Made by a program: the position numbers and the translations under genes. A stretch of DNA of 64,000 bases, from the NCBI RefSeq assembly GCF_002846555.1, contig NZ_PJMS01000001.1, positions 5,167,501 to 5,231,500 on the forward strand. The letters are read 5' to 3'. The notes under the pieces were generated by a model. It had not been told where the DNA came from. It did not search any database and saw nothing but the letters and a program-made list of their open reading frames with translations. Shown here one piece after another: positions 2-9,658 of the stretch (positions within the stretch are counted from its first letter, which is position 1; every line of letters starts with the position of its first letter). Origin of the DNA: Aquimarina sp. MAR_2010_214 (GTDB taxonomy: Bacteria > Bacteroidota > Bacteroidia > Flavobacteriales > Flavobacteriaceae).

Positions 2-727
2 GCATCAGTTGAACAAACTGAAAATGGAACTACATATACAGGTGAAGATGCTAAAGTTGCATTCCTTAATTTAAGGAAGCAGTATGGTAGTGGAAACTCA
101 AAGAATGAAGAAGAAACAAATCCTCAGGATGATATCACAGTTAATTCTGAAGGGGTTGTTACGAATGTTGTTAAGAATAATGATCCAAATAGATTTTTTG
201 ATGAAGATGGAAACGAATTGTCTTTTCACGATTCTGAAGGAGTAGATAAGCCATATATAACAGGAACATATAGGAGAGGTGATCGATTATTCTATTCAGT
301 TTCCACAGAACAAATGAATGAAGAAATAATGAATAGAGGCCTTATAATGCAAAGATGGCTTTCAAAAAGAGGTGGTCCTCAAAGTGGAGTTTATTATATG
401 TGGAGTTTATTTTCTGCTAGAAATAAAGGACATGGGGATTTTGATTTTGCGGAACAATATTTAGCGGATTTAATTGAAAACCCTTCACTTAATACGGGGA
501 GAAATAGATCAAGTACAACTTATAATGATGGAGCTGGTTTTTTTAGACTTGGTAATACGAACAACATTTATAATTTATATGATGCTGGTAATTATATGTG
601 GGGAAAAGCAATGGGAATGTCAGGATTCTCTTATGGAGAAGTAAGAATAGGTTCACAAGCTAATGAAACATTTAGAGATAGTAAAGCTGACCAAAGAGCA
701 ATTAAAAAAGGATTTAATGGAAACTAA
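2..727 (+). CDS. Rhs-family polymorphic toxin, C-terminal end (5' partial)
   Basis: The reading frame is open from base 2 to the stop at 725-727, so this is the 3' end of a larger gene that begins outside the window; the TTG at 218 is internal. The visible 241 residues run from a hydrophilic linker into a C-terminal domain rich in Asn, Gly and Tyr. Its end, with an NLYDAGNYMWG stretch followed by GSQANETF and ADQRAI, resembles what I recall of polymorphic toxin type 44 domains, but I hold that loosely. The Rhs assignment rests mainly on the related Rhs tip at 8221-9267 and on the overlapping membrane gene downstream, a usual toxin-immunity layout. The toxin activity cannot be read from the sequence. 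Confidence 0.6.
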   Translation, partial: ASVEQTENGTTYTGEDAKVAFLNLRKQYGSGNSKNEEETNPQDDITVNSEGVVTNVVKNNDPNRFFDEDGNELSFHDSEGVDKPYITGTYRRGDRLFYSVSTEQMNEEIMNRGLIMQRWLSKRGGPQSGVYYMWSLFSARNKGHGDFDFAEQYLADLIENPSLNTGRNRSSTTYNDGAGFFRLGNTNNIYNLYDAGNYMWGKAMGMSGFSYGEVRIGSQANETFRDSKADQRAIKKGFNGN

Positions 728-1025
728 ACTAAAAAGAAACACGTATCTATCATTATTATTTTTCATATTAGTGATTTTGACATACCTATTGCGTGATTTT
801 ATTGATGATAATTATTATAGAAAGTTTTTGAGTTGGACAACATTATTTATTTTTTATCCGTCGATACTTTTATCTGTATTTTTCTCAATTAAAAGTTTTA
901 ATTTGATTTATAATAATAAAGAATTGGCTCAAAAAAACAAATGGATTATACTTAACTCTTTAAGTATTATTTTTGCTTTATATTTTATTGTTAAAATAAT
1001 TTTGGTAATGTCTAAACCTGTATAA
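717..1025 (+). CDS. Small membrane protein, probable immunity protein
   Basis: The gene encodes 102 residues with three or four hydrophobic segments (about residues 10-27, 40-60 and 80-100) separated by short charged loops. I chose the ATG at 717 over the one at 663: it overlaps the upstream toxin stop by 11 bp, follows an AAAAAAGG ribosome-binding stretch, and avoids a 65-bp overlap. A small membrane protein overlapping the 3' end of a polymorphic toxin gene is the expected position of the cognate immunity gene. No family was recognised, so the immunity role is inferred from position alone. A terminator-like hairpin follows about 60 bp downstream. Confidence 0.55.
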   Translation: METKLKRNTYLSLLFFILVILTYLLRDFIDDNYYRKFLSWTTLFIFYPSILLSVFFSIKSFNLIYNNKELAQKNKWIILNSLSIIFALYFIVKIILVMSKPV

Positions 1026-1140: not shown

Positions 1141-1479
1141 TTATTCTTTGTATAATTTAGCTACCTTTTTATTGATAAGGTAATCAGACATATTAGTGTC
1201 GTTATAGATTACTTCTGCAATATATCGTGCGTATTGGTCTTTGTTTTGTTTGGTGGTTGTAATGGTCACGGTAGCACCTTCTGGGCAGAACTTTTTGGCT
1301 ACTGCTCTGGCGTGTTTTGCTTGTCGTTCTCTGTATGCTACGCTATCTCCTAACTCTGGTGCATCAATACGAGCGAGTCGTATCTTTTGCGTGGTCTGTA
1401 CATAAAATCCTAAATCAATCTCTACTTGCAGGGTATCACCATCGATCCACCTAACAATCTTTGCTTTATAATTAAACAT
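1141..1479 (-). CDS. Thermonuclease (SNase-like) family protein
   Basis: This 112-residue protein is a compact staphylococcal-nuclease fold enzyme, expected to cut DNA or RNA in a Ca2+-dependent way. The signature parts are present: DGDTL near residue 15, then RLARIDAPEL, which supplies the equivalents of Arg35, Asp40 and Glu43 of the S. aureus enzyme, and YARYIAEV, which supplies Arg87. I used the ATG at 1479 (protein begins MFNYKAKIV) because the upstream extension to 1527 matches nothing in the family. No clear signal peptide is seen, so it may be cytosolic. It lies between the Rhs immunity gene and the left copy of the 14-bp direct repeat, so it is probably just outside the mobile element. 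Confidence 0.85.
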   Translation of the reverse strand: MFNYKAKIVRWIDGDTLQVEIDLGFYVQTTQKIRLARIDAPELGDSVAYRERQAKHARAVAKKFCPEGATVTITTTKQNKDQYARYIAEVIYNDTNMSDYLINKKVAKLYKE

Positions 1480-1491
1480 AGCCTTAAAAGT

Positions 1492-1606
1492 ACTACATTT
1501 TTGGGTGTGAAAATGTAATTTGGTCAAAAATAAGGTTCAAAAAAGTATTAAAATATCGTTGTAATAATTTGTATTGTAGTTAGTTACGAAATAAAACTAC
1601 ATTTTT
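1492..1606. repeat. Duplicated att-like motif pair at the left end
   Basis: ACTACATTTTT occurs at 1492-1502 and again at 1596-1606, and each copy is followed by GGTCAAAAAT (at 1522 and 1609). The first copy also carries the inverted repeat ACATTTT/AAAATGT (1495-1501 and 1510-1516). A further CTACATTTTT lies at 7777-7786. The DNA is AT-rich, so some matches may be chance, but the repeated order of both motifs suggests recombinase or regulator binding sites. Confidence 0.35.
1522..1535 (+). repeat. Left copy of 14-bp direct repeat (candidate attL)
   Basis: GGTCAAAAATAAGG matches bases 8184-8197 exactly and in the same orientation. It lies between the nuclease gene and the XRE gene. A partial copy (GGTCAAAAAT) is at 1609-1618. 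Confidence 0.45.
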
Positions 1607-1681
1607 AAGGTCAAAAATGCATGCGGATTATATATAGTATAAAATGATAAGTTATATTTTGTAGGAATATTGATTTTTTAT

Positions 1682-2008
1682 TTATGTAATAGATTTAAGT
1701 TTTACATTTTTGATAAGAGCATCAAGAGTATAGAGTATATGTTCTTTATCATTATCATTCATCTGTTGTACTTCAATAACACGTTTAAGGAGTTGGTTAT
1801 CTACTTCTACAGTTACCTTACCTATTAAGAAATCTAAAGATACTTCTAGTATATCAGCTATTTTAGCAGCTACCTCTATAGATGGTTTTACTTCATCACG
1901 TTCATACCGACCGATAATATCCCCAGAAGTACCTACTTTTTTACCCAATTCATTTTGAGAAAGCTTTTTTTGCTTACGTAGCTTGGTTATCTGCTGTCCT
2001 AAAGTCAT
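1682..2008 (-). CDS. XRE-family transcriptional regulator
   Basis: This 108-residue protein starts with a lambda-repressor-like helix-turn-helix (about residues 5-62): LGQQITKLRKQKKLSQNELG, then the recognition-helix area GTSGDIIGRYERDEVKPS, and ends that domain with LEVSLDFLIG, all typical of XRE/Cro proteins. The C-terminal 40 residues form a helical, probably dimerising tail. It is transcribed away from the AAA+ ATPase gene, with a 148-bp shared control region holding two palindromes built on GATAT/ATATC, which are likely its operators. By analogy with phage repressors it probably holds the recombinase operon in check. Confidence 0.88.
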   Translation of the reverse strand: MTLGQQITKLRKQKKLSQNELGKKVGTSGDIIGRYERDEVKPSIEVAAKIADILEVSLDFLIGKVTVEVDNQLLKRVIEVQQMNDNDKEHILYTLDALIKNVKLKSIT

Positions 2009-2060
2009 ACTTAAAAGTAGTTAAAATGCTATATATAATAAGGTTTTAGCAAAAATAAAC

Positions 2061-2137
2061 GATATAAATATCATAACAAAGATATATAAACCTTGTTTAA
2101 ATCTGATAAATGTTTTAGTTTTGTGATATATATATCA
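2061..2137. promoter_or_regulatory. Candidate XRE operators in divergent control region
   Basis: TGATATATATATCA at 2124-2137 is a perfect 14-bp palindrome 19 bp before the ATPase start. GATATAAATATC at 2061-2072 has the same half-sites (GATAT and ATATC) about the same distance from the XRE side. Paired related palindromes between a divergent regulator and its operon are the usual arrangement for autoregulated XRE repressors. Confidence 0.5.
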
Positions 2138-2156
2138 GAATTTAAACTTATCAACA

Positions 2157-3683
2157 ATGCTAGACACCACCAACCCGAATAATTACGAGTACAGGACAAA
2201 GCACTTAGAAATATCAATCTTGGGCGGTATCAAACTGAATCATTTAGAAGCGTTACGGGTTACATTAGGAATCAATAAAATAAAGTCTGAAACCAAATTA
2301 CGTCATAATGTAGATTTATACAATGATACCCAAGTAGAGAAACTAGTTAGAAAAGTAGCAGAACGTATAGAAATAGGTACAAGTGTAGTTCGAGAAACAT
2401 TACAAAATCTCACAAGTGCCTTAGAACAATATAGAATAGATCAACTCAACAAAGAGCAGGAAGAAGGACAATTACAGATTAAAATATTATCAAGTAAAGA
2501 GCAACAAGAAGCTACCAAGTTTTTAAAATCAAAGAACCTGTTACAAAAGACAAATGAATTAATCGGTCAAAGTGGTGTAATCGGAGAAGAAACCAACCGA
2601 TTATTAATGTACCTGATCTTTACCAGTCGAAAAACATCAAACCCCTTACATTGTATCAGTCTTGGTAGTTCAGGAGTTGGTAAAACACATTTACAATCTA
2701 AAGTATCAGAATTAATCCCCGAAGAAGATAAAATAGAAATTACCGTATTATCTGCTAATGCCTTTTATTACTTTAATCGTACAGAACTACGAAACAAACT
2801 CATACTTATAGAGGACTTAGACGGTGCAGAATCTGTACTCTACCCATTACGGGAATTACAATCTAAAAAGAAGATCACTAAAACAGTAGTACACAAAGAT
2901 ACCAAAGGCACTACTAAAACCATACACCTTACCGTAGAAGGCCCTGTATCTGTATCGGGTTGTACTACCCAAGAATCTATTTATGAAGATAATAGTAACA
3001 GAAACTTCTTATTATATATTGATGAATCACAAGAACAGGATAAAAAAGTAATGCACTATCAACGGTTATTATCCGCAGGAAAAGTAAACAAAGATCAGGA
3101 GTGTATTGCAGCACGATTTTTACGAGATGTACAAAGGGTATTACATCCCATCAAAGTGATCAACCCGTATGCAGAGTACTTAGAATTACCACAATCCGTA
3201 TTTAAACCAAGACGCACCAATAGCCATTACTTACAATTTATAGAAGCCATTACCTTTTATAAGCAATTACAACGATCAAAAAAATATGATGAACAGTCAG
3301 GAGAAGAATTTATAGAAACTACGATCGACGATATACAGGAAGCTAATGACTTGATTAAAGAAGTACTACTTCGCAAGAGTGATATATTAAATGGTGCTTG
3401 TAGAAACTTTTTTGAAATGCTCAAAGGGTATCTAAAAGCCAATACTCAAACCACTTTTACTAATAAAGAAATCCGCCACGTATTACGTATCAATCCAAGC
3501 AATCAAAAACGATATATGATACAATTGCAAGAAGCAGGATTGATACAGAAAGCAAAAGGTAATAAACGAAATGGGTATCTATATGAAATAGCAAATTATG
3601 AAGAGTATAGCAATACTAATCAACAGATAGAAACATTACTTACTAGTACCATAAAAACCTTAGAAGTTCAATATAGTTCATAA
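2157..3683 (+). CDS. AAA+ P-loop ATPase with C-terminal winged helix, helicase-like
   Basis: The 508-residue protein has a Walker A motif GSSGVGKT (about residues 170-177) and a Walker B LILIED (215-220). A GPVSVSGCTTQES segment at about 262-274 and an NSNRNFLLYIDES segment at 279-291 could be sensor and arginine-finger regions. The pattern reminds me of MCM-like or primase-associated helicase ATPases of Bacteroidota mobile elements, but no exact family is recognised. The N-terminal 130 residues are helical and charged. The last 70 residues (TFTNKEIRHVLRINPSNQ onwards) look like a winged-helix DNA-binding domain. It heads the recombinase operon, so a role in element replication, excision or strand opening is plausible; no primase is encoded nearby. 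Confidence 0.65.
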   Translation: MLDTTNPNNYEYRTKHLEISILGGIKLNHLEALRVTLGINKIKSETKLRHNVDLYNDTQVEKLVRKVAERIEIGTSVVRETLQNLTSALEQYRIDQLNKEQEEGQLQIKILSSKEQQEATKFLKSKNLLQKTNELIGQSGVIGEETNRLLMYLIFTSRKTSNPLHCISLGSSGVGKTHLQSKVSELIPEEDKIEITVLSANAFYYFNRTELRNKLILIEDLDGAESVLYPLRELQSKKKITKTVVHKDTKGTTKTIHLTVEGPVSVSGCTTQESIYEDNSNRNFLLYIDESQEQDKKVMHYQRLLSAGKVNKDQECIAARFLRDVQRVLHPIKVINPYAEYLELPQSVFKPRRTNSHYLQFIEAITFYKQLQRSKKYDEQSGEEFIETTIDDIQEANDLIKEVLLRKSDILNGACRNFFEMLKGYLKANTQTTFTNKEIRHVLRINPSNQKRYMIQLQEAGLIQKAKGNKRNGYLYEIANYEEYSNTNQQIETLLTSTIKTLEVQYSS

Positions 3684-3710
3684 TGGTTCAACCCCTATAA
3701 TGAACCATTA
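3681..3710. repeat. Inverted repeat between ATPase and recombinase genes
   Basis: TAATGGTTCA at 3681-3690 is exactly inverted as TGAACCATTA at 3701-3710, with a 10-nt loop, overlapping the ATPase stop codon. No T tract follows, so it may be an mRNA-processing hairpin, a protein-binding site or a partial attenuator rather than a full terminator. Confidence 0.45.
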
Positions 3711-3771
3711 CTATAGTTAATAATCAACGAATTACACAAGTAGTTCACCAAACTCTAAAAAACACATACCG

Positions 3772-4704
3772 ATGAAAAAATTAAAGTTAGAAAGTCCTAG
3801 CTATAGGATACTATTGCCTTCATTTACCGAATGGTTAGACATCTTAGGATATGCAGAAACAACAGTGTATTACCTACCCAACCATCTAAAAGAGTTCTTC
3901 TATTGGTTAGAATGTCATGGGCATACTGATATAGATACCATCACAGCGCAATTAGTAAAAGAATATTACCAGCAGCTTACACAAAGAGCCAATAAAACTA
4001 GGTATGGTGGGCTTAGTAAATCCTATCTCAATAAACACCAGCAAGCATTAAAGAAATTTAGAGAGTACCTGATGCAACACGATGCCAAAACACCTTTAAG
4101 AGTACATCTTAAATCTGAAAGCAACCCTACAGAAGAAAAGATAAATATCCTAACCCAATCTGAAATCAAAGAACTCTTTACCACTTGCAGCTATAGTAAT
4201 AAACGTAAATGTATTAGAATACGGGACAAAGCTATCCTAACCATGTTTTATAGTTGTGGGCTTAGAAGAAATGAAGCCGTACACCTTGATATTAAAGACA
4301 TCCTTTTTGATAAAGAACGTGTATATGTTCGTAAAGGCAAGAATTACAAAGAAAGATTTGTGCCGATCAATAAATACAACCTACGGATATTAGAAGATTA
4401 TATCTATGAATCTCGACCAGAGTTTACGAATCATACAGAAAGCGAAGCTTTATTTATAAACCAGTTTGGTACACGACTGCAAGGCATGTCTTTTGCCAAT
4501 CGGTTAAAAGCTATAACAACAGCTACCGAGAATACAAAGATTATAGAAAAAGATATCACCCTGCATACGTTACGCCACTCTATTGCCACCCATTTATTAC
4601 AAAAAGAAGTGCCACTCGAAAGTATCAAACACTTTTTAGGGCATAGCAGCTTAGAATCCACACAGATTTATACACATATCGTAAAAACCATAGAAAATGA
4701 ATGA
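3772..4704 (+). CDS. Tyrosine recombinase (XerC/D-like), catalytically complete
   Basis: The 310-residue protein has a SAM-like N-terminal core-binding domain (about residues 15-110) and a C-terminal catalytic domain. The full set of catalytic residues is visible: Arg165 in GLRRNEAV, a beta-hairpin lysine near 188-190, His265 and Arg268 in HTLRHS, His291 in LGHSS, and the nucleophile Tyr300 in IYTH. It should cut and rejoin DNA through a 3'-phosphotyrosine link. Its 3' end overlaps the next recombinase gene by 8 bp, implying translational coupling and joint action. Paired recombinases in one operon recall Tn554-type elements, though the other Tn554 gene is absent. Confidence 0.9.
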   Translation: MKKLKLESPSYRILLPSFTEWLDILGYAETTVYYLPNHLKEFFYWLECHGHTDIDTITAQLVKEYYQQLTQRANKTRYGGLSKSYLNKHQQALKKFREYLMQHDAKTPLRVHLKSESNPTEEKINILTQSEIKELFTTCSYSNKRKCIRIRDKAILTMFYSCGLRRNEAVHLDIKDILFDKERVYVRKGKNYKERFVPINKYNLRILEDYIYESRPEFTNHTESEALFINQFGTRLQGMSFANRLKAITTATENTKIIEKDITLHTLRHSIATHLLQKEVPLESIKHFLGHSSLESTQIYTHIVKTIENE

Positions 4705-5578
4705 TTATACTACGCATTTAAAGAAAGAAGGATATGCAATAACTACCATCAAAAGTAATGAAAGACAAGTTACAGATTTTAAAAAATGGTGCAAACGAAA
4801 TCATACTACACCCATAGAAATAGATTATAAAACCTGCTTAAAATACATCAAATATTTAACCAGAAAAGGCAATAGTAAAAGAACGATCAATCATAAATTA
4901 GGAAGCCTAAAAAATTACTTCAACTATCTGATAAGTGAATCCTACCGACTAGACAATCCAATAGAAGATACCAATATAAAAGGAGTAAGAAGGACACTCA
5001 ATCATAACCTACTCGAACCCGAAGAATTAGAAGATTTATATTATAGTTACCAAACCGATACTTACCAAGAAGAATATCACAAATACACCTCAAAACGTAA
5101 TAAAATCATCGTTGGATTACTCGTGTATCAAGGATTAGACACCAAAGACCTGAAAAACCTAAAAACAGAACATTTACAATTAAACAAAGGTAAAATCTAT
5201 ATCCCAGGAACGAAAAAGAGTAATGCCCGAGAAATCGAACTCAAACCGTGGCAGATGATGGATTTTATGGAATATATAGGGGAAGTTAGAAACAAATTAT
5301 TAGAACGATTACAAACCGATACCGATCAACTCTTTCCCTCTGGAGATCGGTTTATCATTGTCAATGCCATTATAAAAAAGGTTAGAAAATATAATCAAAA
5401 AGTACAGAATGGTAAACAGATCAGAGCATCCGTAATCACCAATTGGTTAAGTCAGTACAATCTTAGAAAAACTCAATATCTGGCAGGACACCGTTACATC
5501 AGTTCTACAGAAAGATACTTGCAAGACGATCTTGAAAACCTACATGAAATTGTAAATAATTATCATCCAATACAGTAA
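4697..5578 (+). CDS. Second tyrosine recombinase, degenerate active site
   Basis: The 293-residue protein has the same two-domain plan as its neighbour: a core-binding domain (about residues 1-95) and a catalytic fold with GHRYISSTERY near the end, giving His265 and Tyr274 at the normal nine-residue spacing. Arg243 (QIRAS) fits the second catalytic arginine. However, the position of the first arginine reads GLD (Asp148) instead of GLR, and the usual box II histidine is Lys240. It may therefore be a structural partner, or use an altered site. Start ATG 4697 overlaps the upstream stop by 8 bp. Confidence 0.85.
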   Translation: MNDYTTHLKKEGYAITTIKSNERQVTDFKKWCKRNHTTPIEIDYKTCLKYIKYLTRKGNSKRTINHKLGSLKNYFNYLISESYRLDNPIEDTNIKGVRRTLNHNLLEPEELEDLYYSYQTDTYQEEYHKYTSKRNKIIVGLLVYQGLDTKDLKNLKTEHLQLNKGKIYIPGTKKSNAREIELKPWQMMDFMEYIGEVRNKLLERLQTDTDQLFPSGDRFIIVNAIIKKVRKYNQKVQNGKQIRASVITNWLSQYNLRKTQYLAGHRYISSTERYLQDDLENLHEIVNNYHPIQ

Positions 5579-5619
5579 ACCAGAAACCATATAAAACCAT
5601 AACTTTATACCCTTACACA

Positions 5620-6213
5620 ATGAACATCCGAGTGAAACCAAATACCAAAATAGAAAGCCCCGAAGAACTGTACGAAATTATGCAACGCATCCTAAAACGG
5701 GAGCAAAAAACAGATCGTGATCGGGAACACTTCTGGACAATCAGCCTAAACAATGCCAACACCGTACTCAATATAGAGCTTGTCAGTATGGGCAGCGTAA
5801 ACGCTACGATTATAGAACCGATGGAAGTCTACAGCATACCTTTACAGAAAAGGGCTACACGGATTATTTTAGTACACAACCATCCTGCGGGAACATTAAA
5901 ACCATCCGAATCAGATAAAGACATTACCAATAGACTGATACAAGCAGGGAGGATATTACATATAGAAGTTTTAGACCATATCATCATTACCGAAGAATCC
6001 TTTTACAGCTTTAGCCAAAGTGGTTTGCTCGAAGAACTGGAAAAAAGCCTTGAATATGTTCCTGCCTATGAAATTAAAGCACAAGGAAAAGAAGAAGGAC
6101 AACAGGAAAAAGCTAAAGAAATGGTAAAAGCAATGAAAAAAGAAAATGTTGATATAGAAACCATTATACGCTTTACAGGATTAAGCAAAGCAGAGATAAC
6201 CAAATTACAATAA
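5620..6213 (+). CDS. RadC/JAB-domain protein with Rpn-like tail
   Basis: The 197-residue protein has a RadC-type JAB/MPN metal-binding core: LVHNHPAGTLKPSESDKD supplies His86, His88, Ser96 and Asp99 of the JAMM motif. It lacks the N-terminal helix-hairpin-helix region of full RadC proteins, as is usual for mobile-element RadCs. Residues about 150-197 (EEGQQEKAKEMVKAMKK, then GLSKAEITKL) look like the C-terminal tail of Rpn/PD-(D/E)XK transposase-like proteins, an unusual combination. RadC-type proteins are common on Bacteroidota mobile elements and their biochemical role is unsettled. It lies 41 bp after the second recombinase gene, probably in the same operon. Confidence 0.85.
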   Translation: MNIRVKPNTKIESPEELYEIMQRILKREQKTDRDREHFWTISLNNANTVLNIELVSMGSVNATIIEPMEVYSIPLQKRATRIILVHNHPAGTLKPSESDKDITNRLIQAGRILHIEVLDHIIITEESFYSFSQSGLLEELEKSLEYVPAYEIKAQGKEEGQQEKAKEMVKAMKKENVDIETIIRFTGLSKAEITKLQ

Positions 6214-6224
6214 CTTACATCAAT

Positions 6225-6758
6225 ATGAGTGAAGAAATCACTATCCCAAACGAAATAATCACTAGTAAAATATACCTGATTAGAGATCAAAAAGTAATGT
6301 TAGATAGGGATTTAGCAGAGCTTTATGGGGTAGAAACAAAACGGTTAAAAGAAGCTGTAAGAAGAAATACAGAACGTTTTCCAGAAGATTTTATGTTTGA
6401 AATGACAAAAAATGAGTTCCAAAATTGGAGGACGCAATTTGCGACCTCCAAAACAGATCAAAAAGGTTTACGTTATGCTCCTTTTTGTTTTACGGAGCAA
6501 GGGGTAACCATGTTATCTTGTGTTTTGAATAGTAAAAAAGCTATTGAAGTGAATATCCGAATTATTAGAGTATTTACCAAGATAAGACAAACGCTAACCG
6601 ATAATCTAAGTGTAAAATTAGAAATTGAGGAAATCAAAAAGAAACTTACCAATCATAGTAAAAATATTGAACTGGTCTTTGATTACCTTGATGAACTCAA
6701 TAAAAAATTAGACACACCTGAATTGGATGAGAGAAAGAAAATTGGCTACAAAAAATAA
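6225..6758 (+). CDS. ORF6N domain-containing protein
   Basis: The 177-residue protein carries an ORF6N domain over about residues 8-95: IYLIRDQKVMLDRDLAELYGV, then RFPEDFMF and FTEQGVTMLSCVLNS are its standard signatures. ORF6N is a KilA-N-related domain of phage and plasmid proteins, often annotated as anti-repressor or DNA-binding. A C-terminal helical stretch (about 125-165) probably forms a coiled coil. It begins 11 bp after the radC stop and closes the operon, which is followed by a terminator. A regulatory role opposite the XRE repressor is inference. Confidence 0.85.
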   Translation: MSEEITIPNEIITSKIYLIRDQKVMLDRDLAELYGVETKRLKEAVRRNTERFPEDFMFEMTKNEFQNWRTQFATSKTDQKGLRYAPFCFTEQGVTMLSCVLNSKKAIEVNIRIIRVFTKIRQTLTDNLSVKLEIEEIKKKLTNHSKNIELVFDYLDELNKKLDTPELDERKKIGYKK

Positions 6759-6867
6759 TTAAAAACTAAAAAGATAAAGCGCACTCATACCCCAAAGCTT
6801 TTAATAAATTTTAATAGCTTCAAAAAGAATTAAAAAGCTAAAGAAATACATACAGATCATTAATAAT

Positions 6868-6891
6868 CCCGAATCAAAAGTTCGGGTTTTT
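6868..6891 (+). terminator. Intrinsic terminator of the recombinase operon
   Basis: CCCGAA (6868-6873) pairs with TTCGGG (6881-6886) and is followed by a T-rich run. It lies 110 bp after the ORF6N stop, separating the operon from the hairpin-rich tract. Confidence 0.75.
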
Positions 6892-6940
6892 GTTGTCATA
6901 GATAAATAGCCAAGTGAGTCGTTACACTCCAATTTACTAT

Positions 6941-7460
6941 TATGGGCTTAGCCAGAAAAAGGCTTTGCCCATAAGCTGCAATAAGGTGTTCCTTCGTCAC
7001 TCCACAAGCTATTTTTTGTTATTCCACAAGTGCAGAAAAAGCACTTGTTCCATACCGTTGCAACTCCCTCGCCTTCGGTCGGTAGTCTCTACTACAAACA
7101 AATAGCCTTGCTCTGTTCCTCTATCACCCGTAGCTACTCTTTTGCTTAAAAACAATATGGTACGCTATCGCTGAATAGTTCATTAAGCAAAACCGCTACT
7201 ACATGGGCTACGCCGCTTGGTCACAGCCTAGCCGATTATGTATGTTGAAGTTATTATTGTCATAAATCGGAAACATAAATAATCGGCTGGCACACAAAAC
7301 CACTACGTTCCCTTTTGTGTGTCGGCTGCTCCTCTTCGCTAGGCTCTCGCCTTTGTTCTGCACGCATGCAGCTTCGTTCAATCGCCACTAAGCTATGATC
7401 ATTATTGAAGCTGAAGCTCAGCCGCAACAGCCGTTGCGCCCTTCATCTTCAATAATAATC
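6941..7460. other. Dense inverted-repeat tract (candidate ssDNA fold, origin or ncRNA)
   Basis: No credible gene lies here, yet the tract is visibly richer in G+C than its surroundings and holds at least seven inverted repeats. TATGGGC/GCCCATA is at 6941-6973 and ACAAGTGC/GCACTTGT at 7026-7048; both have the same loop, AGAAAAA. Others are a 10-bp pair TTTTGCTTAA/TTAAGCAAAA (7140-7192), a 15-bp pair with one mismatch (7230-7288), CACACAAAA/TTTTGTGTG (7291-7321), CTGCA/TGCAG (7358-7371) and a 16-bp pair with one mismatch (7401-7456) enclosing CGCAAC/GTTGCG. Options are a recombination site read as folded single-stranded DNA, a replication or transfer origin, or a large structured RNA. Confidence 0.6.
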
Positions 7461-7692
7461 GTTCTTACTCAAACGTAAAAAAAAGATCAACTAGATTGTT
7501 TTTGTATTATAGTTGAATATTAAAGTCGTCATCAACTTTTGTGACCGAATTGTATGGTAAGACATAAAATTATATTTTTACAAGGTATCCTATTGGATTT
7601 TGAAGTGTAGGATTTTACAATCCAAACATGTTAAAATATATCACATCATTTTTTTTTAATCACAAAAAACTTAATTAAAATAGAATTAACAC

Positions 7693-7725
7693 TTTTGTTA
7701 AAAACTATAAAGAAATGTATATTTA
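7693..7725 (+). promoter_or_regulatory. Bacteroidota-type promoter
   Basis: TTTTG at 7693-7697 and TATATTTA at 7718-7725 are 20 bp apart, close to the Bacteroidota -33/-7 pattern (TTTG, about 19 bp, TAnnTTTG) apart from the final base. It would give a leader of nearly 200 nt to the gene at 7927. Confidence 0.4.
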
Positions 7726-7736
7726 CACTATTGATT

Positions 7737-7773
7737 AATAGCTGTTTAAGTTGCTTCTTCCCTAGCTATTTTT
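7737..7773 (+). terminator. Terminator-like hairpin in the 7927 gene leader
   Basis: AATAGCT (7737-7743) pairs with AGCTATT (7764-7770) and runs into Ts. Placed just after the promoter at 7693-7725, it could end a very short transcript or act as an attenuator. The stem is short and the loop is 20 nt, so confidence is low. Confidence 0.3.
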
Positions 7774-7926
7774 AATCTACATTTTTACCCTCGATTTATA
7801 GCGTTTATAAAACTGTATTTTTTGAATAAAAACGAGTTTTTGCAAAAAAATACTATTTATAAATGTATGGTTCTCTAAAACCTTGAAGAGATTGTTTAAT
7901 GAAACTAAATATTAAAACCTAATATA

Positions 7927-8109
7927 ATGAACTTTATACACGTAACACTAATAATCATTTTTGGATTTGTTTTTATAATGACAATATTGCTCAATTTTGT
8001 TGATAAAGAAAAAATACCGCTAATGGGGGATTTTTTTGGAAAAGTACTTCCAAAAATGCCAAAACTCTTCAGTCAATCAAAAGGTAAGGAAGACGAAGAA
8101 TCCCCATAA
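7927..8109 (+). CDS. Hypothetical 60-residue membrane protein
   Basis: A single hydrophobic segment (about residues 4-24, rich in Ile, Phe and Leu) is followed by a short charged tail ending KGKEDEESP, so the product is probably a single-pass inner-membrane protein with the tail in the cytoplasm. Nothing in it matches a family I know. It stands alone between the hairpin tract and the right copy of the 14-bp direct repeat, which would make it the last gene of the candidate mobile element. The start ATG follows an AT-rich leader without a strong Shine-Dalgarno site, as is normal in this phylum. Confidence 0.5.
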   Translation: MNFIHVTLIIIFGFVFIMTILLNFVDKEKIPLMGDFFGKVLPKMPKLFSQSKGKEDEESP

Positions 8110-8183
8110 AATAAATTGTAGAAACAATAGATATATCTATATTTACAATACGTTCTTAAAAAAATAAATTTGCTGTAGGTATG

Positions 8184-8197
8184 GGTCAAAAATAAGG
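8184..8197 (+). repeat. Right copy of 14-bp direct repeat (candidate attR)
   Basis: This is an exact copy of bases 1522-1535 in the same orientation. It is framed by a 5-bp inverted repeat (GGTAT at 8178-8182, ATACC at 8199-8203), and Rhs-like coding sequence resumes about 24 bp later. Confidence 0.45.
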
Positions 8198-8220
8198 GAT
8201 ACCGTTAAAAAAAATGCGTA

Positions 8221-9267
8221 AACTATTATCCCTTTGGGCTGCAACATAAAGGGTACAATTTTGCTGTGAATGGTAGGAAACATAATTATGGGTATAATGG
8301 GCAAGAAACTGAAGAATCTCTAGGATTGAACGTTTCTGAAATGACTTTTAGACAATATGACCCTGCAATTGGTAGATTTAATGTAATTGATGCTGCTGCA
8401 GAATTAGCACAAAATTGGACGCCTTATCGTTTTGGTTTTAATAATCCTATTAAATTTAGTGATCCATCAGGTTTATGGGAAATAAAAGATGGTAATTGGT
8501 ATACCAATGATTCAAAAGACATTGAACGTTTTGTAAATATGCTTGGTTTTGAAAAATCAAATACAGGAGAGGAAGCTTCTATAGCACAAATAGATACTTT
8601 TATTTCAGAAGAGTTTAGAGGTTCTGGAGGAAGGTTAAGTGATGGTAGTGCATTATTAGATAGTGAAACGGTAGTTGCAGACAGTAATGGTAATTCAAAT
8701 GGATTTAGTGAAAGGCAGGCTTTTCATATAGGTAGTCAAGTGGAGAATTTTGGTTCAAATCCTTGGAATGAAAAATCAGGACTATATGACAATCCTTTTT
8801 ATAGCTACAAATACTATAGAGAAAGAAGTTGGGAATCAAGAGGAGGATCATTTCCTGGTATAAAATTAGGTTTCTTTGGATCTAAATATGCTCAAAGTCT
8901 TTTGTATAACCCAGGGAATTGGTGGTATTCTACTAAAGTTAATAAATTTTATGATTGGTCATTTACAGGAAACGGTCATACTGGAGGAAGAAATAAATAT
9001 ATAGGTAATATATCTAAAAAATGGAGTAAGTATGCAGGAAATGCAGGAAAAGCATTTGGTGTATACAGTCTCTATAATACAGCAGGACAATATCAAGATG
9101 GAACTTTAACTGCTTTTGGAGCGGTCTATATAGGAGGTGTAGATGGAGCTGCTTTGGGTAGTAAAAACTTAAATGTTGCAGCTTGGTCATTAGGCACAGG
9201 AATAGGTAAATCAATAGTAGAGAGTAATTGGTATTTTAATGCAGTTCATAATGATATAAACTGGTAA
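8221..9267 (+). pseudogene. Displaced Rhs C-terminal tip (5'-truncated toxin module)
   Basis: Rhs-like sequence starts abruptly: NYYPFGLQHKGYN is in frame just ahead of GRKHNYGYNGQE, and an in-frame stop lies at 8206, so the usual long Rhs core is missing. The conserved Rhs end is intact (YDPAIGRFNVID, then NWTPYRFGFNNPIKFSDPSGL), followed by about 270 residues of variable tip rich in Gly, Tyr, Asn and Ser that I cannot assign to a toxin family. A GTG at 8266 could start translation, but a stand-alone product would lack delivery sequences. This is the classic form of an orphan Rhs tip kept beside a full Rhs gene and swapped in by recombination across the core end. Confidence 0.8.
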
Positions 9268-9268
9268 A

Positions 9269-9658
9269 ATGATATATAGAAGTTTTTTCGGATTTTTATA
9301 CTCCTATTTTAAAAAGGGTAAAGATATTGATCCATTAATATCTTCGACTTTTGCAATAGTAGGCTTACAAGTATTAAATTTAATCTTTTTTCAAGGTTTA
9401 CTTTTCTTTCATTACAGTAATCAAAGGCATTTATTGTATAGTGAGACTCGTGTTTTTGGATTTGGAATTATAACATTATTGATATTTGTAAACTACTTTT
9501 ATTTTAAAAAACGTGAAGGGGAAAAACTTGAAAAAGAATATAGAATTGTTGCTAAAAAGAAAATATATATCTTGTTTTATTGGATATATATTTTAGCTTC
9601 AATTGCTTTAGCGATAATCATGTTATACACTATAAGAAACAATATAAGATTTTTTTAA
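9269..9658 (+). CDS. Small membrane protein, probable immunity protein of the orphan Rhs tip
   Basis: The 129-residue product has three hydrophobic segments (about residues 28-50, 65-82 and 102-122) joined by basic loops, so it is an integral membrane protein. Its ATG comes one base after the stop of the Rhs tip, mirroring the first module at 717-1025, which supports an immunity role. The family is not recognised. Its stop overlaps the next gene start in a TAATG arrangement, so both downstream genes are probably translated together with the tip. Confidence 0.55.
   Translation: MIYRSFFGFLYSYFKKGKDIDPLISSTFAIVGLQVLNLIFFQGLLFFHYSNQRHLLYSETRVFGFGIITLLIFVNYFYFKKREGEKLEKEYRIVAKKKIYILFYWIYILASIALAIIMLYTIRNNIRFF

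Follow-up and report, generated by a model that had tools for sequence, protein, structure and literature searches.

In integrons, a tyrosine recombinase places the newest insertion at the head of the array, older cassettes are displaced, and a structured site lies near the cassette end. For Rhs toxins, the sections of Jackson et al. (2009; PMC2935791) consulted here describe a complete rhs head with displaced tips and core fragments behind it, propose a circular intermediate and homologous recombination, and know of no integron-type integrase beside Rhs. In bee-gut Snodgrassella and Gilliamella, integrase-like genes near Rhs were suggested to play a role in moving Rhs sequences, although the consulted part of that study works out no unit, target site or mechanism (PMC5727410, 2017). 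Excerpts of two further papers place XerC/D genes near polyimmunity loci (PMC3482391, 2012) and describe displaced Rhs tips in Ornithobacterium, naming no recombinase for them (PMC13183296, 2026). Here we analyze a 64,000-nucleotide stretch of Aquimarina sp. MAR_2010_214 (the window; positions 5,167,501-5,231,500 of the single-contig 5.98-Mb genome, G000:C1), in which a unit with two tyrosine recombinases, TR1 and TR2, lies within an rhs array. Unlike in the 2009 displacement model, as far as those sections set it out, tips here travel with the two recombinases and enter fixed codons. These units are very probably tip-carrying integrative elements, providing an integron-like, self-encoded mechanism of Rhs C-terminal displacement. 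No description of Rhs tips carried by recombinase units was recognized in searches of open-access PMC papers, subscription papers and supplements lying outside that scope.

Borders and repetition of the units

Searching the genome with the element resolved its copy groups into four arrays with 13 units (13 ATPase matches): three units at approximately 1.864-1.890 Mb, two at 3.130-3.144 Mb, five at 5.139-5.176 Mb, of which the window's is the last, and three at 5.767-5.790 Mb. At the head of each array stands an rhs gene of 1,498-1,570 amino acids (aa) without interruption, behind which displaced tips, core fragments and immunity genes follow, and the anatomy of C-terminal displacement, as the consulted sections of the 2009 paper give it, recurs in 4/4 arrays. 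TR1 and TR2 are present in every one of the 13 units, all of which share the orientation of their array's rhs, and 17 of the genome's 20 TIGR03696 matches fall inside the arrays (4 heads, 13 displaced pieces). Elsewhere, two Rhs-core matches lie in very long open frames of 3,309 and 3,580 aa on the minus strand (G000:C1:4551110-4562970), near which the genome search listed no element match.

Base-exact borders were obtained by sliding the arrays against themselves and one another. Identical units stand in tandem with periods of 6,716, 6,717, 6,600 and 8,006 bp, tip and immunity gene included. In the 3.13-Mb array, two identical units with a period of 6,600 bp start at the codons TTAGGGAA (within the Asp-His-Leu-Gly-Asn-Ile-Arg motif), hold a tip, an immunity gene, XRE, ATPase, TR1 and TR2, and finish with a right end, GTAAATGGTGACCAT, that meets TTAGGGAA again. 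This 6.6-kb unit recurs in the 5.77-Mb array, identical from TTAGGGAA onward and with a different rhs upstream. Another unit, bordered by Gly-Asn-Tyr-Ile-Tyr-Lys-Asn-Gly, is found in two copies at 1.87 Mb and two at 5.14 Mb; in the first 1.87-Mb copy, a one-base difference in TR1 shortens the frame. These repeated and relocated stretches contain the tip with its immunity gene, both of which are therefore part of what moves. The window unit runs from 5,167,256 to window position 8220 (8,465 bp), in the order Rhs tip, immunity gene, SNase, XRE, ATPase, two recombinases, optional RadC/ORF6N, structured tract and right end.

The original prediction had instead drawn a mobile unit from the XRE gene to the hairpins (1522-8197), for which Rhs regions served as landing pads and Rhs tips were unrelated flanks. 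Much of its description holds: the genes it named (XRE, P-loop ATPase, two overlapping tyrosine recombinases, RadC-like JAB and ORF6N) are all real, Rhs pieces lie on either side, and a compact mobile unit aimed at Rhs genes, fitting no prophage, integrative conjugative element or ordinary integron, is what we also find. However, comparison moves the borders to an rhs codon site 245 bp ahead of the window, well inside rhs and not near 1522, and to base 8221, and the left tip with its immunity gene is part of the unit rather than a flank, being included in the repeated and relocated stretches. An exact 14-mer, GGTCAAAAATAAGG, at 1522 and 8184 was considered as an attachment site and rejected, since the comparison-derived borders lie elsewhere. 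Such a repeat is unremarkable because at least one exact 14-mer pair occurs in 61 of 200 Markov sequences with matching composition (66/200 in another run); the interval 1522-8197 also contains a 16-base repeat. A unit reaching only from XRE to the hairpins is therefore extremely unlikely. A tRNA target was likewise rejected, the window containing no tRNA.

Target codons and recombinase lineage

When displaced tips are matched to full-length rhs, the match starts fall on few points, giving site classes S1 (NGNMIKD), S2 (GNYIYKNG), S3 (DHLGNIR) and S4 (NYYPFG). Of the seven S2 pieces in this genome, six share their start base and the seventh begins four bases on; all four S3 pieces share one, and S1 and S4 are represented by one case each, the S4 case being the window unit. 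From head to tail, the 5.14-Mb array reads S2, S2, S3, S1, S4, and the class of each displaced piece is that of the unit immediately before it, as would be expected if new units had kept entering at the head. In 23/23 testable units, the upstream rhs reading frame runs through the insertion codon without a break.

A scan with the ATPase confirmed 119 stretches, 80 of which were kept, and returned 70 loci; together with the four arrays of this genome, these comprise 101 units. They yield 69 distinct recombinase pairs, 42 of which have a readable downstream junction and were used to compare site class with the recombinase trees. Six changes of class are required in both the TR1 and the TR2 tree, the minimum for seven classes, and none of 200 label shuffles was as low (mean 16.7). 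In these quick trees, for which SH-aLRT provides the only support values, S1, S2 and S3 each form one side of a branch for both recombinases. By these comparisons, target class follows recombinase lineage, and the unit anatomy together with its site specificity is, in our assessment, nearly certain.

These data bear on the route proposed by Jackson et al. (2009), whereby RecA-type homologous recombination between rhs cores displaces the tips and the recombinase module would be a passenger. Such recombination accounts for loci in which displaced tips and their core pieces lie behind a complete head, and it is consistent with a displaced tip that has no recombinase unit (L150) and with modules that look mosaic (L021). 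However, exchange over long core identity would scatter breakpoints over the conserved core, whereas the junctions occupy a small number of exact codons, which follow recombinase clade, and the right end possesses a conserved sequence of its own, without rhs homology ahead of the junction. Homologous recombination is thus an improbable source of these arrays, and it may apply to tips without a unit.

Genes of the window unit and its structured right end

The carried Rhs C-terminal toxin tip occupies 1-727 of the window on the plus strand, its left border lying 245 bp earlier at G000:C1:5167256 (codons N-Y-Y-P-F-G, class S4). Directly behind it, a 120-aa gene without a Pfam match (663-1025, plus strand) is a candidate immunity gene by position, followed by a passenger found in only some units, an SNase-family nuclease (1141-1527, minus strand; Pfam SNase 39 bits, cut-off 21). 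An XRE/RstR-family repressor is encoded at 1682-2008 on the minus strand (NCBIfam NF041951 94 bits, cut-off 80), and a minus-strand XRE gene precedes the ATPase in 88 of the 101 units. The P-loop ATPase (2157-3683, plus strand) has no Pfam model above cut-off by itself, a PDB sequence search with it returned 0 matches, and its AlphaFold model is poor (mean pLDDT 61); it does, however, align at 51% identity (511 positions) with residues 342-850 of a relative that is 864 aa long and has CHC2 zinc finger and Toprim domains. Judged by this homology, the ATPase corresponds to the C-terminal half of CHC2-Toprim primases.

TR1 (3772-4704, plus strand; Pfam Phage_integrase 137 bits) has the full catalytic set, with R165, H265 and R268 in 69/69 distinct sequences and H291 and Y300 in 68/69. 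The overlapping TR2 (4697-5578, plus strand; Phage_integrase 40.8 bits) lacks the first catalytic arginine, a column at which Arg is found in 1/69 sequences, and retains R243 (68), H265 (69) and Y274 (68 of 69). Compared with the window unit, L021 is 88% identical in the ATPase and 47% in TR2, and L025 is 80% and 96% identical, respectively; because modules look mosaic in this way, genes may be exchanged between units. Two optional plus-strand cargo genes follow, encoding a RadC-like JAB protein (5620-6213; Pfam RadC 132 bits; 6/90 units) and an ORF6N-domain protein (6225-6758; Pfam ORF6N 121 bits; 22/90 units). The original prediction had counted both within the element's gene set, of which XRE, ATPase, TR1 and TR2, with the structured right end, indeed form the conserved core; RadC and ORF6N were rejected as core parts and are passengers, one or both occurring in just 25 of the 90 two-recombinase units in the part read. 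The ORF6N protein also matches the PADLOC candidate-defense model PDC-S05 (228 bits), and this optional cargo may thus be a defense gene. Further along are a 60-aa open reading frame (7927-8109, plus strand), unproven and with no family above cut-off, and, behind the right end, the older displaced Rhs core fragment and toxin tip (8221-9267, plus strand; TIGR03696 51.7 bits), at whose first base homology to full-length rhs begins. A candidate immunity gene of the displaced tip, again assigned by position, occupies 9269-9658 on the plus strand.

The RstR-like repressor, the primase-derived ATPase and the tyrosine recombinases are similar to genes with which satellites replicate and integrate, and the units could be read as satellites, prophages or integrative conjugative elements that have decayed and lie by chance in the rhs arrays. 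Against this, the genes of the window unit include no capsid or other structural gene and no packaging, tail, relaxase or secretion gene, which sets the unit apart from prophages and from integrative conjugative or mobilizable elements. No ATPase relative was confirmed in IMG/VR, on which ground a phage origin was rejected. Moreover, the units are intact, repeated within one genome and present in other members of the phylum, making chance residence of a decayed element highly improbable.

The window unit's right end (8205-8238, plus strand) consists of an A-run with TGCGTA at 8205-8220, after which the rhs codons AACTATTATCCCTTTGGG of a class S4 site follow at 8221-8238. A consensus of 24 distinct S4 right ends reads TTAAAAAAAACGCATA ahead of the junction and AACTACTATCCCTTTGG behind it; of the 26 S4 units, one in L037 gave no anchor. 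In the other classes, inspection by eye shows a T or A run and then a short arm, which is mostly ACGTA or GCGTA in S2 (exceptions include GTATA and GCATA), GCGTA in S3, and GCATAG, GCTTTAAG or GCAGTAG in three S1 ends. The sequence CGCATAA may resemble a Xer half-site. Short repeats like GGTCAAACTGGTGCTTTTGAAAA were also noted by eye near displaced tips, at approximately 10438 and 10593 in the window and 15148, 15528 and 15685 in L150.

Ahead of this end lies a conserved structured tract (6905-7479, no strand assigned), in keeping with the hairpin-rich stretch predicted originally. The interval 6900-7490 folds far better than its dinucleotide shuffles, both as plus-strand RNA (z -5.8) and as minus-strand DNA (z -7.4), with 0/100 shuffles as good in each case. 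Tract homologs lie between TR2 and the right end in 35/85 units, and the consensus tested has 12 helices. Among 18 aligned tracts, 23 of 83 pairs feature pair-keeping changes on both sides, against a shuffled mean of 10.1 (0/500 as high) and 3-8 pairs in slid controls. The structure used for this comparison came from that alignment itself, less four long-range pairs and with one hairpin drawn in manually. Counted by cell, changes affecting both sides number 58, compared with 13.3 in shuffles. This covariation across the aligned tracts supports the hairpins. The alignment contains 65 G-U type cells on the plus strand and 35 A-C type cells, 36 of the 65 deriving from two invariant pairs, and these counts do not decide between RNA and DNA. 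Within the last kb before the right end, a 200-base window with z<=-4 was found in 9/16 distinct units with tract homology and 19/25 without, compared with 0/16 and 0/25 for TR2 coding sequence; since the control is recombinase coding sequence rather than other intergenic DNA, and the value is the best of several windows at 30 shuffles each, this contrast may be overstated. A known RNA family was rejected for the tract, which has no match in Rfam, the sole match lying elsewhere and below its gathering score. As a guess, the tract could be a circle origin or a recombination-control site.

Toxin tips, relatives and the proposed insertion mechanism

The 73 units with a readable tip carry 36 tip families, and where TR2 identity is at least 85%, the tips lack detectable similarity in 44 of 48 distinct-unit pairs (93/96 before repeats are collapsed). 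The four tip-sharing exceptions comprise one pair within L037, one within L085, L048 with L049, and L067 with L073. A Tlde1-type domain was detected in one tip, which is common to two heads (Pfam 31.7 bits, cut-off 30.1). In the four arrays, 15 of 17 tips have a small same-strand gene directly behind them, taken as an immunity gene by position; the final tips of the 3.13- and 5.77-Mb arrays have none. These candidate immunity genes point to an antibacterial role, and antibacterial tip switching is probably the benefit conferred.

Among the 80 ATPase stretches kept of the 119, the 70 loci are all from Bacteroidota, 69 from Flavobacteriaceae (29/70 titled Aquimarina) and one from Marinilabiliaceae. 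ATPase matches occur in 21/52 genomes of the genus (E<=1e-100) and 21/299 of the family (E<=1e-20; some are fragments or primase-fused), and profile matches in 12/395 of the phylum (E<=1e-50), this genome included each time. ATPase, TR1 and TR2 stand together in 90 of the 101 units, as the original prediction of a co-located gene set implied, and the alternative that the genes are never together fails. Of the same 101, 84 have an Rhs match at most 4.5 kb upstream; 11 do not have both recombinases, and nine of these are truncated where the contig or stretch ends. L086 (3390-6798) carries an Rhs piece 1.4 kb behind its ATPase and is perhaps a non-autonomous derivative. Where enough DNA is available, Rhs lies within 4.5 kb upstream in 58/64 units and downstream in 42/48. 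The upstream misses are A1858 unit 3, L061, L065 and L084, whose tip is further off, and two L080 units, whose divergent Rhs was missed; one of the six downstream misses is also an L080 unit, and there a divergent tip does follow. In L048 (8124-9993) and L049 (13438-15307), two more tyrosine recombinase genes stand right after TR2, the last convergent, with no displaced Rhs behind.

Occupied and unoccupied alleles can be compared at one locus, a check raised by the original prediction. Between a gene for a 217-aa protein and a membrane gene, which we take to be acyltransferase-like, this genome carries rhs and five units, and its relative G299 carries rhs and one displaced tip (L150) with no recombinase unit. 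At this locus, the stretches read from G302, G329, G315, G345, G320, G342 and G310 contain no match to the Rhs proteins of this genome. Those of G327, G324, G300 and G321 end within 4 kb; in the G327 stretch an Rhs tip adjoins the membrane gene, and the other three contain none.

In a sister family (L160 and L161 in G220; L162-L167; L185-L187), the same ATPase is joined to a CHC2-Toprim primase. Eight of the 11 primase-fused modules read keep the order ATPase, TR1, TR2, L164 and L167 are cut after the TR1 start, and L165, 35% alike, has no recombinase in 2.2 kb. Of the 12 genomes matched in the phylum search, eight were read together: Rhs stands beside the module in seven, and none was recognized at L186. 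G220 was read separately, and G402 and G482 lie outside the set read. In G220, two primase-fused units stand in tandem, and the left border lies inside the coding sequence of a tip without a match to our Rhs queries. The sister family thus appears to widen the tip-carrying principle, as seen in this one array. By eye, the displaced tips behind the G220 right end begin with a signal-peptide-like leader, and because of this start they might stay expressed.

Comparison of the arrays establishes the borders, the single orientation, the in-frame fusion, the lineage-linked target class and the identical units at several loci. In the mechanism we propose, a unit consisting of a 5' Rhs tip and immunity gene, then the repressor, primase-derived ATPase, two tyrosine recombinases and structured right end, would recombine as a circle, joining its right-end/tip junction with one fixed rhs codon site. 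The unit's tip would then extend the resident rhs frame, with the former tip and its immunity gene ending up behind the unit. Repeated head insertion would generate arrays in which the head-proximal tip is live and older immunity genes are retained. It is highly likely that TR1 and TR2 are the catalysts, and a circular intermediate is likely; the ATPase and structured tract perhaps serve circle replication or recombination control, and insertion would be reversible.

Several observations weigh against this reading. Gene conversion could also have spread the identical copies. The site positions are derived from alignment starts; S4 requires three changes in the TR2 tree, and its one TR1 group has a support of 31; three further classes (L057, L082, L090) comprise one unit each, with sites further upstream in rhs. 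The units are not all independent, because overlapping loci of one contig (for example, L071, L076 and L078) are counted. L040 and L086 lack recombinases within the 1.8 and 10 kb, respectively, behind their ATPase, and L035, L048, L049, L075 and L088 show no displaced Rhs in approximately 8 kb of following DNA. Overlapping ends were found in 1/32 whole short contigs (L065), and tandem copies would give the same. In G299, where the displaced tip has no unit, its rhs piece begins ahead of the S2 site, and a second route of displacement therefore exists. Lastly, TR2 lacks the catalytic arginine; IntDOT of Bacteroidota is an active recombinase despite missing that first arginine.

The tip-carrying integrative element resembles an integron in its tyrosine recombinase, head insertion, displaced older cargo and structured site near the end. 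It differs in that the units carry their own recombinases and the target lies inside a coding sequence. TR1 scores 96.2 bits against the IntI model TIGR02249 (cut-off 265), for which TR2 is not listed, and in place of a single integrase serving cassettes without one, each of the 13 units has both recombinases. The structured tract near the right end of the units may be a counterpart of attC. Shufflons also change the C-terminal part of a protein by a tyrosine recombinase, Rci, which inverts fixed segments in place, whereas the 13 units here are oriented like the rhs of their array and are found at several loci. TR1 also falls below both cut-offs of the gamma-mobile-trio (GmtY, GmtZ), at 39.9 bits against 340 and 16 against 600. 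The rAID systems, as partly consulted, share Bacteroidota hosts, a tyrosine recombinase and immunity-gene arrays, but their immunity genes are orphans, whereas tip, immunity gene and recombinases here form one unit in a toxin gene. The Aux3 type VI secretion module of Vibrio cholerae integrates, and excises as a circle, by a tyrosine recombinase; it is prophage-like and lies between att sites, and the portion consulted (PMC7721734) says nothing of its replacing a resident toxin gene at the 3' end.

Tip exchange in Rhs and other polymorphic toxins has been an open question since displacement was proposed in 2009, and these units suggest an enzyme set and defined target codons for it, such that each recombinase lineage yields a falsifiable target prediction. 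They also suggest recombinases able to place a C-terminal fusion at a chosen codon. The displaced tip and immunity arrays of Bacteroidota would constitute a readable record of past insertions. On balance, we favor a phylum-wide class of selfish yet useful elements that carry, as payload, the 3' end of the very gene they target: their spread would come from upgrading a polymorphic toxin in frame while displaced immunity genes are kept for protection against former siblings, their lineages would be split by codon, and the primase-fused sister family would do the same in at least one array, on a toxin gene without a recognized RHS.

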